A stretch of DNA of 64,000 nucleotides from Vibrio sp. ED004 (GTDB lineage Bacteria > Pseudomonadota > Gammaproteobacteria > Enterobacterales > Vibrionaceae). Position 1 is the stretch's first letter. Each line of letters starts with the position of its first letter. This document shows positions 15,306 to 35,354 of this stretch, piece by piece. A program made the translations under genes and the position numbers. The DNA lies in the NCBI RefSeq assembly GCF_023206395.1, contig NZ_CP066149.1, forward strand, positions 1,054,001 through 1,118,000, read 5' to 3'. The notes beneath the pieces were generated by a model, which was given only the letters and a program-made list of their open reading frames with translations, made no database searches and was not told the DNA's origin.

Positions 15306-15575
15306 TTAGCGACGTAGGCCTAGGCGCTTGATTAGATCTTGGTAACGAGAAAGGTCTTTACCTTTCAGGTAGTCAAGAAGCTTACGACGGCTAGAAACCA
15401 TACGTAGAAGACCACGACGGCTGTGGTGATCGCCTTTGTGTGCTTTGAAGTGACCTTGAAGGTGGTTGATAGAAGCAGTTAGTAGTGCTACTTGTACTTC
15501 TGGTGAACCAGTATCGCCTTCAGCGCGTGCGTATTCTGCAACGATTGCTGCTTTAGTTTCTGCATTCAGAGACAT
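15306..15575 (-). CDS. rpsO: 30S ribosomal protein S15
   Basis: S15 binds the central domain of 16S rRNA and nucleates 30S assembly. The 89-residue protein has the S15 core [20 protein letters not shown] and [20 protein letters not shown]. An AGGAGA ribosome site precedes the ATG. It lies between truB and pnp and has its own terminator, so the three can be expressed separately. Confidence 0.98.
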
Positions 15576-15701
15576 AATTCTCTCCTGATAAGAGTAGTTT
15601 AATATTTGTAGCAGCCAATCTCTGATTCAGCCGCTACGCGAGCCGAGGATTATAGGGAAGTTTGTCAGTTGGTGCAATAACAATCGAACGCCTTAAAAAC
15701 G

Positions 15702-22002: not shown

Positions 22003-22022
22003 AAAAAAAGGGCTCAAAGCCC
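22003..22022 (-). terminator. Terminator-like hairpin in the rimP leader
   Basis: The stem GGGCT / AGCCC is followed by T7 on the minus strand, ending just upstream of the rimP ribosome site. Read-through past it is needed to express the operon, so it is a candidate attenuator. Confidence 0.6.
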
Positions 22023-22043
22023 AATTTAAATTCCAAGCAAACA

Positions 22044-22075
22044 TTATCTAAATACATTTACAAATGCTTAGATAA
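22044..22075 (-). promoter_or_regulatory. Dyad upstream of rimP
   Basis: The arms TTATCTAA...CATTT and AAATG...TTAGATAA form an interrupted inverted repeat of 32 bp between the tRNA terminator and the rimP attenuator. It may be an RNA hairpin or an operator. Confidence 0.45.
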
Positions 22076-22076
22076 C

Positions 22077-22104
22077 AAAAAACCCCGTATAAGCCGGGGT
22101 TTTT
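22077..22104. terminator. Intrinsic terminator after the tRNA-fMet gene
   Basis: CCCCG / CGGGG with a 7-base loop is flanked by A6 and T5, so it works in either direction. On the minus strand it ends the secG-leuU-metY transcript before rimP. Confidence 0.75.
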
Positions 22105-22219
22105 GTTGCTGGACCCTTATATGCTAAGTGCCATCACATTCGATATCGCACTTAACTCACAGTGAGGTTCACACTGTGCAAACTTGCTACCAATACAAGC
22201 TATATAATAGCATTGAAAT

Positions 22220-32893: not shown

Positions 32894-33739
32894 CTAAGCG
32901 ATACCGAGGAAGGAATTCACGACAGTGAAATAGATCCACATTCCTGAGATATCGACTATCGATGCAAGTACTGGGCTCACTAACACCGCAGGATCAAGCT
33001 TAAATAGTCGAGCAACGATCGGCAACCCACCACCGAGCACCGTGGATATCGTCACCTGAATAAATAGTGCTACGGCAATCGCAAGTGCAATCATGTTGAT
33101 GTCATAACCGCCAGTTGATTGGTTTTCGCTAAACAGCAAAATACGACCAATCATCACCACTGCAATCGCAAGTGCTAAGCAGATAGCAACTCTAAACTCT
33201 TTCCATAAAACATTAGCCCATTGGCGTTTTTTCAACTCGCCGGTGGCTAAGGCTCTAATCACTAGAGTCGCAGCTTGTGTTCCGGTGTTACCACCCGCAG
33301 CAGCGATTACTGGCATATAAATCGCCAGAAGTACCAGCTGGCTAAGGATATCTTCATACTGAGCGATGATAAGCCCAGAAACGATACCCAGCAGTGCTAA
33401 GGCGATAATCCAACCTATGCGCTGTCTAACGTGGCTCATCACCCCAGTTGAAAGGTAACCCTGTTGAGGCTCAACCTCCGAGTAGATCAGCCCTAGTTGG
33501 TGAGCTAGATGTCGAGAGCGCTTCTCAAAGCCCTGCTCTTCTAGCTCACTAAGTAAAGTCTGAATCGTACTAAGAGAACATTGCCCAAGTACTATCACCG
33601 CATCTTCAAGCGGCATGCGGTTCAAAAGGTTAACTTGTTGTTCACGTCCATACTGTTGAAATGCATTCGATACAGCTTGGATGTCTTGCTCTGAGTACAG
33701 AGCTTCAATAGATAAAAAAGTGTTGTTCATTACCGTCAT
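32894..33739 (-). CDS. MgtE-like magnesium/cation transporter without CBS domains
   Basis: An inner-membrane protein of 281 residues. An N-terminal MgtE_N-like helical part (VSNAFQQYGREQQVNLLNRM) is followed by five membrane helices with the MgtE pore signature MPVIAAAGGNTGTQAATLVIRAL. The two CBS domains that gate full-length MgtE are absent, so Mg2+ gating must differ. The ATG at 33739 has GGGAG seven bases upstream; starts at 33760 and 33730 are also in frame. The long 5' region holds a 14-codon ORF, a terminator-like hairpin and four tandem repeats. It lies downstream of tyrS with its own promoter region. Confidence 0.85.
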   Translation of the reverse strand: MTVMNNTFLSIEALYSEQDIQAVSNAFQQYGREQQVNLLNRMPLEDAVIVLGQCSLSTIQTLLSELEEQGFEKRSRHLAHQLGLIYSEVEPQQGYLSTGVMSHVRQRIGWIIALALLGIVSGLIIAQYEDILSQLVLLAIYMPVIAAAGGNTGTQAATLVIRALATGELKKRQWANVLWKEFRVAICLALAIAVVMIGRILLFSENQSTGGYDINMIALAIAVALFIQVTISTVLGGGLPIVARLFKLDPAVLVSPVLASIVDISGMWIYFTVVNSFLGIA

Positions 33740-33798
33740 GGCGAATCTCCCGATTGGCAAAGGTAACGACCATCAAAACAAATAGCCTATAGCTAATA

Positions 33799-33873
33799 CA
33801 CCAAGGGCATATAATGTGTACACCAAGAGGATGTAGCCAAGCGCACCAAGAACGTATAACTAGGCGCACCAAA
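33799..33873 (-). repeat. Four tandem 22-23 bp repeats upstream of the mgtE-like gene
   Basis: The plus strand carries CACCAAR at 33799, 33821, 33844 and 33867, spaced 22, 23 and 23 bp. The units are loosely alike beyond the core (for example GCGCACCAAG, GTACACCAAG). An inverted GGTG follows at 33888. They lie in the predicted mgtE leader, 60-130 bp before the start. Confidence 0.7.
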
Positions 33874-33933
33874 AGCTGAAAACTACTGGTGTGTCTACTT
33901 GTTAGAATCTAGAGTGTGGAAAAGAATGAGGGG

Positions 33934-33965
33934 AAAAAACAAAGATACCCTACCTGAACGGCAGG
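33934..33965 (-). terminator. Terminator-like hairpin in the mgtE leader
   Basis: On the minus strand CCTGCC / GGTAGG (loop GTTCA, one G-U pair) is followed after GTATC by TTTG and T6. It lies between the leader ORF and the gene, the position of an attenuator. The stem is short, so strength is uncertain. Confidence 0.45.
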
Positions 33966-33989
33966 ACAATAGATCAATACCGAGACAGG

Positions 33990-34034
33990 TTATTCTTCTC
34001 CATTCAAACTAGGAGGATGGTCGGTATTGTTCAT
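33990..34034 (-). CDS. Putative 14-residue leader peptide of the mgtE-like gene
   Basis: The ATG at 34034 has an ideal GGAG ribosome site six bases upstream and opens MNNTDHPPSLNGEE, then TAA. It has a proline pair next to an acidic residue and ends in two glutamates. In enterobacteria the short proline- and acid-containing MgtL peptide controls mgtA through ribosome instability at low Mg2+; this ORF has no sequence match to MgtL, only similar position and composition. Its codons 2-5 (CAATACCGA) can pair with TCGGTATTG just after its stop (33983-33975). The gap 33740-34166 holds this ORF, the hairpin, the repeats and a dyad; no other gene is seen. Confidence 0.5.
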   Translation of the reverse strand: MNNTDHPPSLNGEE

Positions 34035-34051
34035 AAAAATCTCCAGAATTA

Positions 34052-34066
34052 CTGTCAATTTGACAG
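34052..34066. promoter_or_regulatory. Perfect dyad upstream of the mgtE leader ORF
   Basis: CTGTCAA-T-TTGACAG, a 15-bp palindrome, lies just upstream of the leader ORF ribosome site. It may be an operator near the promoter or a hairpin at the 5' end of the transcript. Confidence 0.45.
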
Positions 34067-34118
34067 CGCGCATAGTGTAGCAATAGGCGTTTCAAAGTTT
34101 CGTCAGCTTTCTGTCAAT

Positions 34119-34144
34119 AAAAAAGGCATCCGTAGATGCCTTTT
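34119..34144 (-). terminator. Intrinsic terminator of tyrS
   Basis: AAAAGGCATC / GATGCCTTTT with loop CGTA is followed by T residues on the minus strand. Confidence 0.85.
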
Positions 34145-34166
34145 GTTCAATTATTGATGAGCGTTA

Positions 34167-35354
34167 TTACTTGATAGTAATGCGAGCAAACTTACGCTTA
34201 CCAACTTGGTAAACCGCAGTACCTGCTTCAGGTACGAATTTGCTGTCTTCGATCTTCTCGCCTTCAAGCTTAGCTGCGCCTTGCTTGATCATACGCATCG
34301 CATCAGAAGTCGAGTTTACTAGACCCGCTTCTTTTAGAACGTTAGCAATTGGTAAGCCTGCTTCGAATTCGAATTCAGGCATATCATCTGGCACTTGGTT
34401 CTTAGCAAAACGGTTAACGAACTCTTGCTCAGCTGCATCAGCATCCGCTTCAGAGTGGAAACGAGCAATGATCTCTTTCGCTAGAAGTACTTTCACGTCA
34501 CGCGGGTTTTTACCTGCATCAACGCCAGCTTTCAGTTCCGCAACTTCTTCAAGTGGACGGAAAGACAGTAGCTCGTAGTAGCTCCACATTAGATCGTCAG
34601 AGATAGACATGATCTTACCAAACATCTCGCTTGGTGCTTCGCTGATACCGATGTAGTTGTGCGCAGACTTAGACATCTTCTTAACGCCATCTAGACCTAC
34701 AAGTAGTGGCATCATCAGTACCGCTTGTGGTTTTTGACCTGCTGCTTTTTGCAGTTCACGACCCATTAGAAGATTAAACTTCTGGTCAGTACCGCCAAGC
34801 TCAACGTCGCTCTCTAGTGCAACAGAGTCGTGACCTTGAAGAAGTGGGTACATGAATTCGTGGATTGCGATCGGTTGACCACCAGCGTAACGCTTTTTAA
34901 AGTCATCACGCTCAAGCATACGAGCAACAGTTTGGTTAGAAGCAAGACGAATCATGCCTTCAGCACCAAGCTCAGATAGCCACTCAGAGTTGAAACGAAT
35001 TTGCGTTTTCGCAGGATCTAGAATCTTGAATACTTGCTCTTTGTAAGTTTCAGCATTCTTCAATACGTCTTCACGGCTTAGCGGTGGACGCGTTGAGTTT
35101 TTACCTGATGGGTCACCAACCATTGCAGTGAAATCACCGATAAGGAATGTCACTTCATGACCAAGCTCTTGGAAAGCACGAAGCTTGTTAAAGATAACCG
35201 TATGGCCTAGGTGGATATCTGGAGCTGTTGGATCGGCACCCAGCTTAATGCGTAAAGGACGACCTTCTTTTAATTTAGCAATCAGTTCGTCTTCTGGAAT
35301 CAGTTCTTCTACGCCACGTTTGATCTCGGCTAGTGCAGCTTCAATACTCGCCAT
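34167..35354 (-). CDS. tyrS: Tyrosyl-tRNA synthetase
   Basis: A class I aminoacyl-tRNA synthetase that charges tRNA-Tyr. The HIGH motif reads [13 protein letters not shown], the KMSKS motif is intact ([14 protein letters not shown]), and the C-terminal S4-like RNA-binding domain is present ([19 protein letters not shown]). The 395-residue length and the HLGH form fit the TyrRS of the second bacterial type (TyrZ-like) found in many vibrios rather than the E. coli K-12 type. It is divergent from the M23 peptidase gene. Confidence 0.95.

Follow-up and report, generated by a model that had tools for sequence, protein, structure and literature searches.

A conserved leader RNA with a short, very probably translated open reading frame precedes a CBS-less MgtE-like gene in vibrios

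In enteric bacteria, the Mg2+ transporter genes mgtA, mgtCBR, mgtB, and corA are accompanied by short leaders or intergenic open reading frames (ORFs) that are read by the ribosome. In the available portions of the reports on MgtL, slow or abortive translation of the leader is tied to higher expression of the transporter (PMC11282234, PMC11552253), and the available part of the report on MgtP draws the same link to higher expression, with a response to proline-charged tRNA (PMC3641672). For MgtQ, abortive translation is described, in the accessible part of the source, as altering RNA pairing and freeing the ribosome-binding site of the transporter gene (PMC8092293).

Here, we describe a leader upstream of an MgtE-like gene in Vibrio sp. 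ED004. The window, that is, the whole stretch of DNA analyzed, spans 64,000 nucleotides (contig C1, 1054001-1118000) of a 5.8 Mb genome, the nearest named relatives of which, in the search for related loci, include Vibrio splendidus genomes with 99% protein identity. All elements of the locus are on the minus strand, and a gap of about 430 nt separates the MgtE-like gene from the gene at 34167-35354 (-), which we take, from its sequence, to be tyrS. An earlier note on this DNA had proposed a leader-peptide attenuator for the MgtE-like gene. Of that proposal, the regulatory leader, very probably translated, is retained, but intrinsic attenuation is unsupported as a common mechanism. The leader and its RNA stand beyond chance through conservation, and the terminator-like hairpin alone is no more than chance. 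We regard the presence of a conserved regulatory RNA upstream of the MgtE-like gene as nearly certain, and translation of the leader ORF as highly probable.

The 14-codon ORF with a good ribosome-binding site pointed out in the note was confirmed, its Shine-Dalgarno (SD) sequence GGAG, six bases upstream, being kept in 68 of 69 loci. A degenerate 23-base leader pattern (up to three mismatches) occurs once in the genome, at the leader site; the reversed control pattern also has one match, elsewhere. The predicted transcription start lies just 5' of the hairpin H0 and some 33 nt ahead of the leader, not downstream of 33990, in line with the earlier proposal. The extended -10 motif TGnTAnnnT was sought 30-50 nt before the leader ATG and found in 97 of the 122 unique loci, at 37-42 nt and in 76 loci at exactly 39 nt, compared with 4 when the sequence was reversed and 9 of 122 for a region farther downstream; the loci are related, and these counts are not independent. 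The features are listed in Table 1.

Table 1. Features of the leader and MgtE-like gene, in window coordinates
Feature	Position	Strand	Basis
Extended -10 TGCTACACT; predicted transcription start ~34067-34069	34074..34082	-	Motif counts
H0, 5' hairpin CTGTCAAATTGACAG	34052..34066	-	All 5 pairs show both-side changes; 79.5% paired cells, 57 rows
Leader SD GGAG, six bases 5' of ATG	34044-34041	-	
Leader ORF MNNTDHPPSLNGEE plus stop; ATG 34034 to TAA 33990	33990..34034	-	14 codons; 68/69 loci, 122 unique loci tabulated
A, CAATACCGA, 5' arm of the hairpin predicted to hide the leader start	34021..34029	-	Helix counts and partner-swap energies
A', CGACCATC, complementary to F	34016..34023	-	Minimum-energy fold; codons 4-7
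Pro7-Pro8 codons, kept as amino acids	34011..34016	-	Codon table and tree parsimony
B, GGAGAAGAATA, leader 3' end, pairs with E	33991..34001	-	Cells paired in 47 rows
C, TCGGTATTG, 3' arm, partner of A	33975..33983	-	Helix counts
D, hairpin TGTCCTGCC-GTTCA-GGTAGGGTA, resembling a terminator in some relatives only	33946..33968	-	Covariation; U-tract counts
E, pyrimidine tract ATTCTTTTCC, pairs with B	33918..33927	-	Window fold and paired-cell counts
F, GATGGTCG, complementary to A'	33767..33774	-	Core kept, hardly varies
G, hairpin GTTACC...GGTAAT around the mgtE SD and start codon	33729..33767	-	Window fold
CBS-less MgtE-like protein, 281 aa, ATG 33739	32894..33739	-	PF01769, TIGR00400, 2yvx

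The 69 named related loci all come from Vibrio, Salinivibrio, or genomes labelled Vibrionales, and a leader with its own SD and a peptide starting MN[NT][TI]DHPP was found in 68 of them, the sole miss being L062, which on visual inspection has CTG in place of the start codon. A family-wide search with the MgtE-like protein gave some match in 295 of 296 genomes, many of these matches being distant by E-value. Among 60 upstream regions picked from protein matches, which overlap the named loci, 57 carry leaders; loci called unique below are unique sequences. The three misses are L158, which is probably the same locus as L062, and the second MgtE copy of G274 (L167) and the copy on contig 12 of G148 (L164), neither with a leader by the pattern. 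Uniqueness was judged by sequence, and several entries repeat named loci (e.g. L245/L069, L246/L071, L242/L067, and L243/L066).

A covariance model of the element (R2) yielded one match each in 195 of the 296 family genomes, covering 6 of 13 genera, under strict filters with 10 candidates scored per genome; with looser settings, one match each was found in 20 of 24 chosen genomes. The other four of the 24 (G123, G132, G254, and G260) gave no leader in the looser search and nonetheless have MgtE-like matches of 1e-53 to 1e-104; thus, some short MgtE-like genes are without a detectable leader. Across 295 genomes of the order, R2 matched 16 of the window's genus and one from another family, G342 (locus L208), in which the leader MNDSDHPPSIKVGNNP is followed by a short MgtE with a 302-residue frame. 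Eight of the 11 genomes of that family match MgtE, the short form being confined to G342 and the other seven having 428-445 residues. Nothing in 274 genomes drawn from the class passed 1e-40 except the match in the window's own genome and a fragmentary one with a 191-residue frame. A weak R2 match in G455 (L209, E 8.8e-4), where a script found no leader, was not counted, and the same script found none at L229 (G230, R2 E 8.2e-9). In L155 and L156, F and the G arms are lost, there is no clear C, and His6 is replaced by Asn, with Pro-Pro kept. These two loci and L062 show apparent decay of the element.

The protein encoded downstream matches the MgtE membrane domain (PF01769, E 2e-33, 115.8 bits, cutoff 27.6) and falls outside the MgtE equivalog, scoring 150.8 bits against TIGR00400, below the 232.75 cutoff, and covering only profile positions 265-449. 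Residues 283-468 of the Thermus thermophilus MgtE (2yvx) align with it. All its domain matches are confined to the membrane domain, and no CBS domain was reported in profile searches; one truncated relative gave a sub-threshold MgtE_N match (16.4 bits vs 25.9). Judging by these matches, Mg2+ transport by the CBS-less protein is likely. Directly behind the gene lies an IS200/IS605 family transposase (NF033573; 32300-32734, -). Elsewhere in the window, Rfam identifies an S15 leader at 15519-15638 and a rimP leader at 22003-22135 (-).

The leader is also kept before genes that encode the N-domain and at most about one membrane helix (by eye), namely, Salinivibrio L069-L071 and L244, which shares their genus code (g10), with the same truncated type present in the window's genus (L237, L239, L240, and L241). 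These truncated frames have 94-131 residues, L245 and L246 being repeats of L069 and L071, and there is one full-length Salinivibrio relative (L063). For the four Salinivibrio-type truncated genes, dN/dS is about 0.11-0.17 in the four pairs compared out of six (dN 0.070-0.224, dS 0.548-1.915), so that they look like living genes under purifying selection; for L063/L244, L239/L240, and L241/L064, dS is saturated and uninformative. The tree of truncations, with few columns and long branches, has up to three changes, and the truncation may have one origin. Other shortened frames stop near residue 204 (L066/L067), at 214 (L064), and at 254 (L059). A leader that outlives the transporter domain raises the question of the role of the N-domain alone.

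Codon usage separates what is kept as peptide from what is kept as RNA. Over the 122 unique loci, codon 5 is invariably GAC, and codons 7 and 8 invariably encode Pro, codon 7 as CCT (91) or CCC (31) and codon 8 with all four third bases (CCT 80, CCC 18, CCA 6, CCG 18). The residue at codon 3 varies (N 100, D 14, T 7, H 1), as does that at codon 4 (T 102, I 18, N 1, A 1). Under parsimony on a rough FastTree of the N-domain (88 of 89 rows with leader), codons 7 and 8 underwent at least 7 and at least 8 codon changes with no amino-acid change, and codons 3 and 4 at least 6 changes each, of which at least 5 and at least 6, respectively, alter the amino acid. With at least 15 codon changes and no amino-acid change, Pro7-Pro8 is held, by this comparative measure, as protein; the third base of codon 7 is only T or C, and a bias in base changes may help there. 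Codons 3-4 are, by the same measure, held mainly as RNA.

The conservation of leader codons that the note proposed as a check was thus observed, with Pro7-Pro8 kept as peptide, but most leader codons appear to be kept by RNA pairing rather than as peptide. Conservation of the acidic last codons was not supported by the comparison: the terminal Glu-Glu is not kept among the 122 unique loci, and the 3' codons vary in sequence and in length, from 11 to 19 codons. In L024 and L059, one base is lost right after Pro-Pro, leaving the peptide MNNTDHPPVAG. Where an otherwise intact leader has a differing start codon, it is GTG. Codon 9 (34010-34008) is AGT in 120 of 122 loci, with no AGC or TCN, and lies outside the described helices; no reason for this was found.

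For the analysis of RNA structure, 117 unique regions were reduced to 58 representatives, and a 47-row alignment was built without the g8, g9, and g13 rows and L155, which have different spacing; a 57-row alignment used representatives chosen anew, with L123, L155, and L156 excluded. Duplex energies with native and exchanged partners were compared over 139 unique loci. The pairing of codons 2-5 with a 9-base segment after the stop, first seen in the single sequence, was upheld in relatives: A and C are paired in 93% of the cells of the 47 representatives and in 92.6% over 57 rows, where six rows show A-U to G-C changes on both sides. Also over 57 rows, the leader SD pairs with an adjoining anti-SD in 72.5% of cells, and the D stem is 91-95% paired, with four pairs changed on both sides. 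The structure as a whole is 88.8% paired in 47 rows, compared with 40-56% after the partners are shifted by 1-3 columns, and has 40 both-side-changed cells vs 14 in shuffles; the corresponding values in 57 rows are 85.5% vs 28-51% and 93 vs 29. Thirteen pairs have a both-side change in the 57 rows, a number reached by 18 of 500 shuffles. Unaided RNAalifold recovers the A:C core and D, and not B:E.

Partner exchange points to the same A:C helix. In 12 g3 loci, the native partner binds at -18.7 kcal/mol vs -13.6 for a partner from another genus, and the contrast is similar at the single loci of g7 (-21.7 vs -15.3), g13 (-22.9 vs -13.4), and f2 (-22.4 vs -17.6). Within g10 and g8 the foreign partner binds as well as the native one, and in g1 nearly so, in keeping with a helix that has changed little; shuffled partners are weaker by 6-7 kcal/mol in these three groups, and the native partner beats shuffled ones in all eight groups. 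The leader AUG, too, is covered by the partner in the duplexes listed for g7, for g13, and for two of the three g3 loci. Taken as a comparative result, codons 2-5 are half of a hairpin hiding the leader's own start.

Further pairings reach toward mgtE. The two halves of B:E are paired in 94% and 82.5% of cells (47 rows). Among the 139 unique loci, B:E is clearly above shuffled partners in g1, g10, and f2 and also at the lone loci of g7 and g9 (a partner from another genus equals the native one in g9), only slightly above them in g3, and not above them in g8 and g13. We regard complementarity of the leader's 3' end to E as established by comparison for the window's genus, g10, and the f2 locus. 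A':F, B:E, and the G hairpin all appear in the minimum-energy fold of the window RNA, where A':F is formed by CGACCAUC and GAUGGUCG, about 240 nt apart. The stability of this fold corresponds to a z-score of -1.84, with 5 of 100 shuffles as stable. The F core GGTCG is present in 132 of 139 unique loci, and A':F displays no covariation in this set, in which F hardly varies. The arms of G likewise vary little: both were lost together in L155/L156, they are still complementary in L208 after changes on both sides, and a pair is broken in some loci, e.g. with GTTACA in four and GTCACC in two. As A:C crosses A':F and B:E, these helices would be either alternatives or parts of a pseudoknotted whole. 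The spacer between E and F varies in length in near relatives, the distance from leader start to gene ranging over 225-292 nt in L003-L010. Within it, at 33795-33880, CTTGGTG-like words recur by eye about every 22 nt; Tandem Repeats Finder did not confirm them as a tandem repeat in that interval.

On balance, we favor a cis-acting mRNA leader of about 330 nt in which the translating ribosome serves as the sensor. A ribosome loading on the leader before C is made would melt A:C, and its speed through Asp-His-Pro-Pro-Ser would set the time during which A, A', and B are covered and, hence, which pairings form; once each ribosome leaves, the A:C hairpin would shut the leader again. That ribosome speed at Pro-Pro is what is sensed seems to us fairly probable. 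Slow passage or abortion there, at low Mg2+, poor charging of Pro-tRNA, or low EF-P, would lead to more expression, by analogy with mgtA, mgtC, and mgtB. By the same analogy, and tentatively, Mg2+ could be the main signal and could act by destabilizing ribosomes on the leader. The output would act mainly at mgtE initiation, where it is placed because the conserved F and the G hairpin sit at the mgtE start; we judge this placement slightly short of an even chance. In this model, comparison backs the sensor, and the output is inferred.

For 59 representatives, folding ensembles were computed nested-only and without kinetics, the ribosome being drawn as an unpaired stretch; the results are those of the listed rows and the means. 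B:E forms both on ribosome-free RNA and when the ribosome sits at the start codon. Placed at Pro8, the ribosome hides A' and most of B; placed at the stop, it hides B. Pairing is therefore lost in these two positions by construction, and this loss is not a result. With the ribosome at Pro8, the openness of the mgtE SD changes by a mean of -0.08 (down by more than 0.2 in 14 of 59 representatives and up in 3; p 0.14), and with the ribosome at the stop by -0.06 (12 down and 6 up of 59; p 0.26). The idea that C or E sequesters the mgtE SD while the leader is occupied was rejected, complementarity to the mgtE start being not above shuffles for C (native -14.4 vs -13.5, p 0.14) and weaker than in shuffles for E (-11.6 vs -12.3, p 0.015). 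With openness changes this small and inconsistent and no excess complementarity of C or E, no simple SD switch is seen.

A more specific version of this scheme, which we consider rather unlikely, is a switch independent of mgtL in which codons 2-6 act as RNA, hiding the leader start and reaching the mgtE start, and Pro-Pro at codons 7-8 acts as the speed sensor; the root product would be an MgtE-type N-domain, so that the controlled regulator protein need not be a transporter.

The strongest competitor places the output at Rho. Following the logic published for mgtA and corA, in the available portions of those reports (PMC11282234, PMC11552253), full translation of the leader would open the E stretch for Rho and stop transcription before mgtE, and abortion at Pro-Pro would let B:E close the stretch and permit read-through. 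This is consistent with the presence of B:E in the ribosome-free fold and with the covering of B when the ribosome has reached Pro8 or the stop; moreover, pyrimidines make up 65% of the 80 nt that follow D, with 24% C and 14% G. However, the C content is more than double the G content in only 44 of 139 loci, so that the rut-like make-up is not strong and the base composition after D is indecisive. Moreover, B:E is unsupported in g8, and the conserved F and G at the mgtE start go unexplained. We consider Rho control unlikely, although less so than the readings that follow.

Classic attenuation, with D and its T-run as an intrinsic terminator and A:C or B:E as the alternative fold, is the form in which the note had cast the locus, and here its claim divides. 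The hairpin is indeed conserved, with covariation, and in the window copy, 6 of the 8 nt that follow the stem are T. In contrast, a U-tract (at least 5 T in 8 nt) follows only 56 of 138 hairpins, a count on which an intrinsic terminator as the common output was rejected, and the occurrence in the window is at chance level: within 33500-34500, D (33968-33946) and its T-rich tail make up the one site resembling a terminator, and shuffles average 0.9. No conserved pairing able to disrupt D was noticed. With the hairpin kept and its U-tract present in fewer than half of the loci, we hold intrinsic attenuation to be improbable.

Equally improbable, in our estimate, is a riboswitch that senses Mg2+ or another ligand directly, with the ORF merely providing helix sequence. 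The highly conserved and partly crossing helices (A:C with B:E and A':F) and the retention of codons 2-6 as RNA would suit it. Against it, all changes at Pro7-Pro8 are synonymous, and of these two codons no base beyond the first of codon 7 falls within a described helix; in addition, the SD, start codon, and in-frame stop are kept despite varying stop position and 3' codons. Nor does any Rfam family reach its threshold in the leader region, where the M-box riboswitch, which we take to be RF00380, is absent among matches at gathering score or E up to 10. That the ORF encodes a micropeptide acting in trans, which the nearly fixed DHPPS core might suggest, is very improbable, given that residues 3, 4, and those beyond 9 vary, the length ranges from 11 to 19, the surrounding RNA is held, and the element in inspected loci always stands before the MgtE-like gene or its truncated form.

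We return to the leader with the ribosome as sensor, which seems to have evolved independently. If this reading is true, sensing of Mg2+ or proline supply by way of ribosome progress would have more than one origin, here in another transporter family and another bacterial family, and it would suggest how an MgtE without a CBS gate could still be controlled. Over a hundred natural leader variants are available for testing which residues matter. In the open-access literature searched on Vibrio mgtE leaders, MgtL-type leaders, Vibrio small proteins and structured RNAs, and the peptide string, no report of the element was found, and the available portions of PMC11109978, PMC8632094, and PMC9276622 contain no report of it.

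Among described systems, a more distant parallel is the Mycobacterium tuberculosis M-box with a uORF and Rho, as outlined in the accessible part of its report (PMC12810186). The mgtE motif SRC-65-1 of Thioalkalivibrio is likewise a candidate structured RNA before mgtE but is, in the available part of its description, a riboswitch candidate restricted to Thioalkalivibrio with no leader ORF described (PMC11109978). The available text on corL of corA presents a translated uORF, two RNA folds, and a Mg2+ transporter, all probable here too, along with a single Pro, Rho, and another gene (PMC11552253). A tiny ORF is likewise found in mgtQ, between mgtC and mgtB in Salmonella; unlike the vibrio element, a 5' leader with no simple SD switch found, it is intergenic and has 8 codons with Asp/Glu, according to the accessible portion of the source (PMC8092293).

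Another likeness is to mgtP in the Salmonella mgtCBR leader; the available portion of its report describes a short ORF in which Pro codons follow one another at the base of alternative stem-loops (PMC3641672). In the vibrio leader, the conserved Pro-Pro is placed between A and B, both covered by a ribosome at that point, but there are two Pro in a row instead of three, and the genes and the RNA are different. With mgtL of mgtA in Salmonella and E. coli, the vibrio leader shares, going by the available parts of the reports, a short leader with Pro and acidic codons, a gene for a Mg2+ transporter (in the vibrios a likely one), and predicted alternative folds (PMC11282234, PMC11552253); here, the ORF, SD, Pro7-Pro8, and Asp5 are conserved over the 122 unique loci, and translation is predicted. 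Unlike mgtL, which serves a P-type ATPase and has the destabilizing motif EPDP, the vibrio leader serves the MgtE family, has the core DHPPS, and is complementary in addition to the start region of the structural gene; it has no Rfam match, and Rho is only a candidate participant. The earlier note had claimed no homology to MgtL, and none of the tabulated leader peptides holds EPDP. The element, whose RNA architecture has no counterpart among the Rfam families, would, as read from comparative analysis, add to the known ribosome-read leaders of Mg2+ transporter genes.
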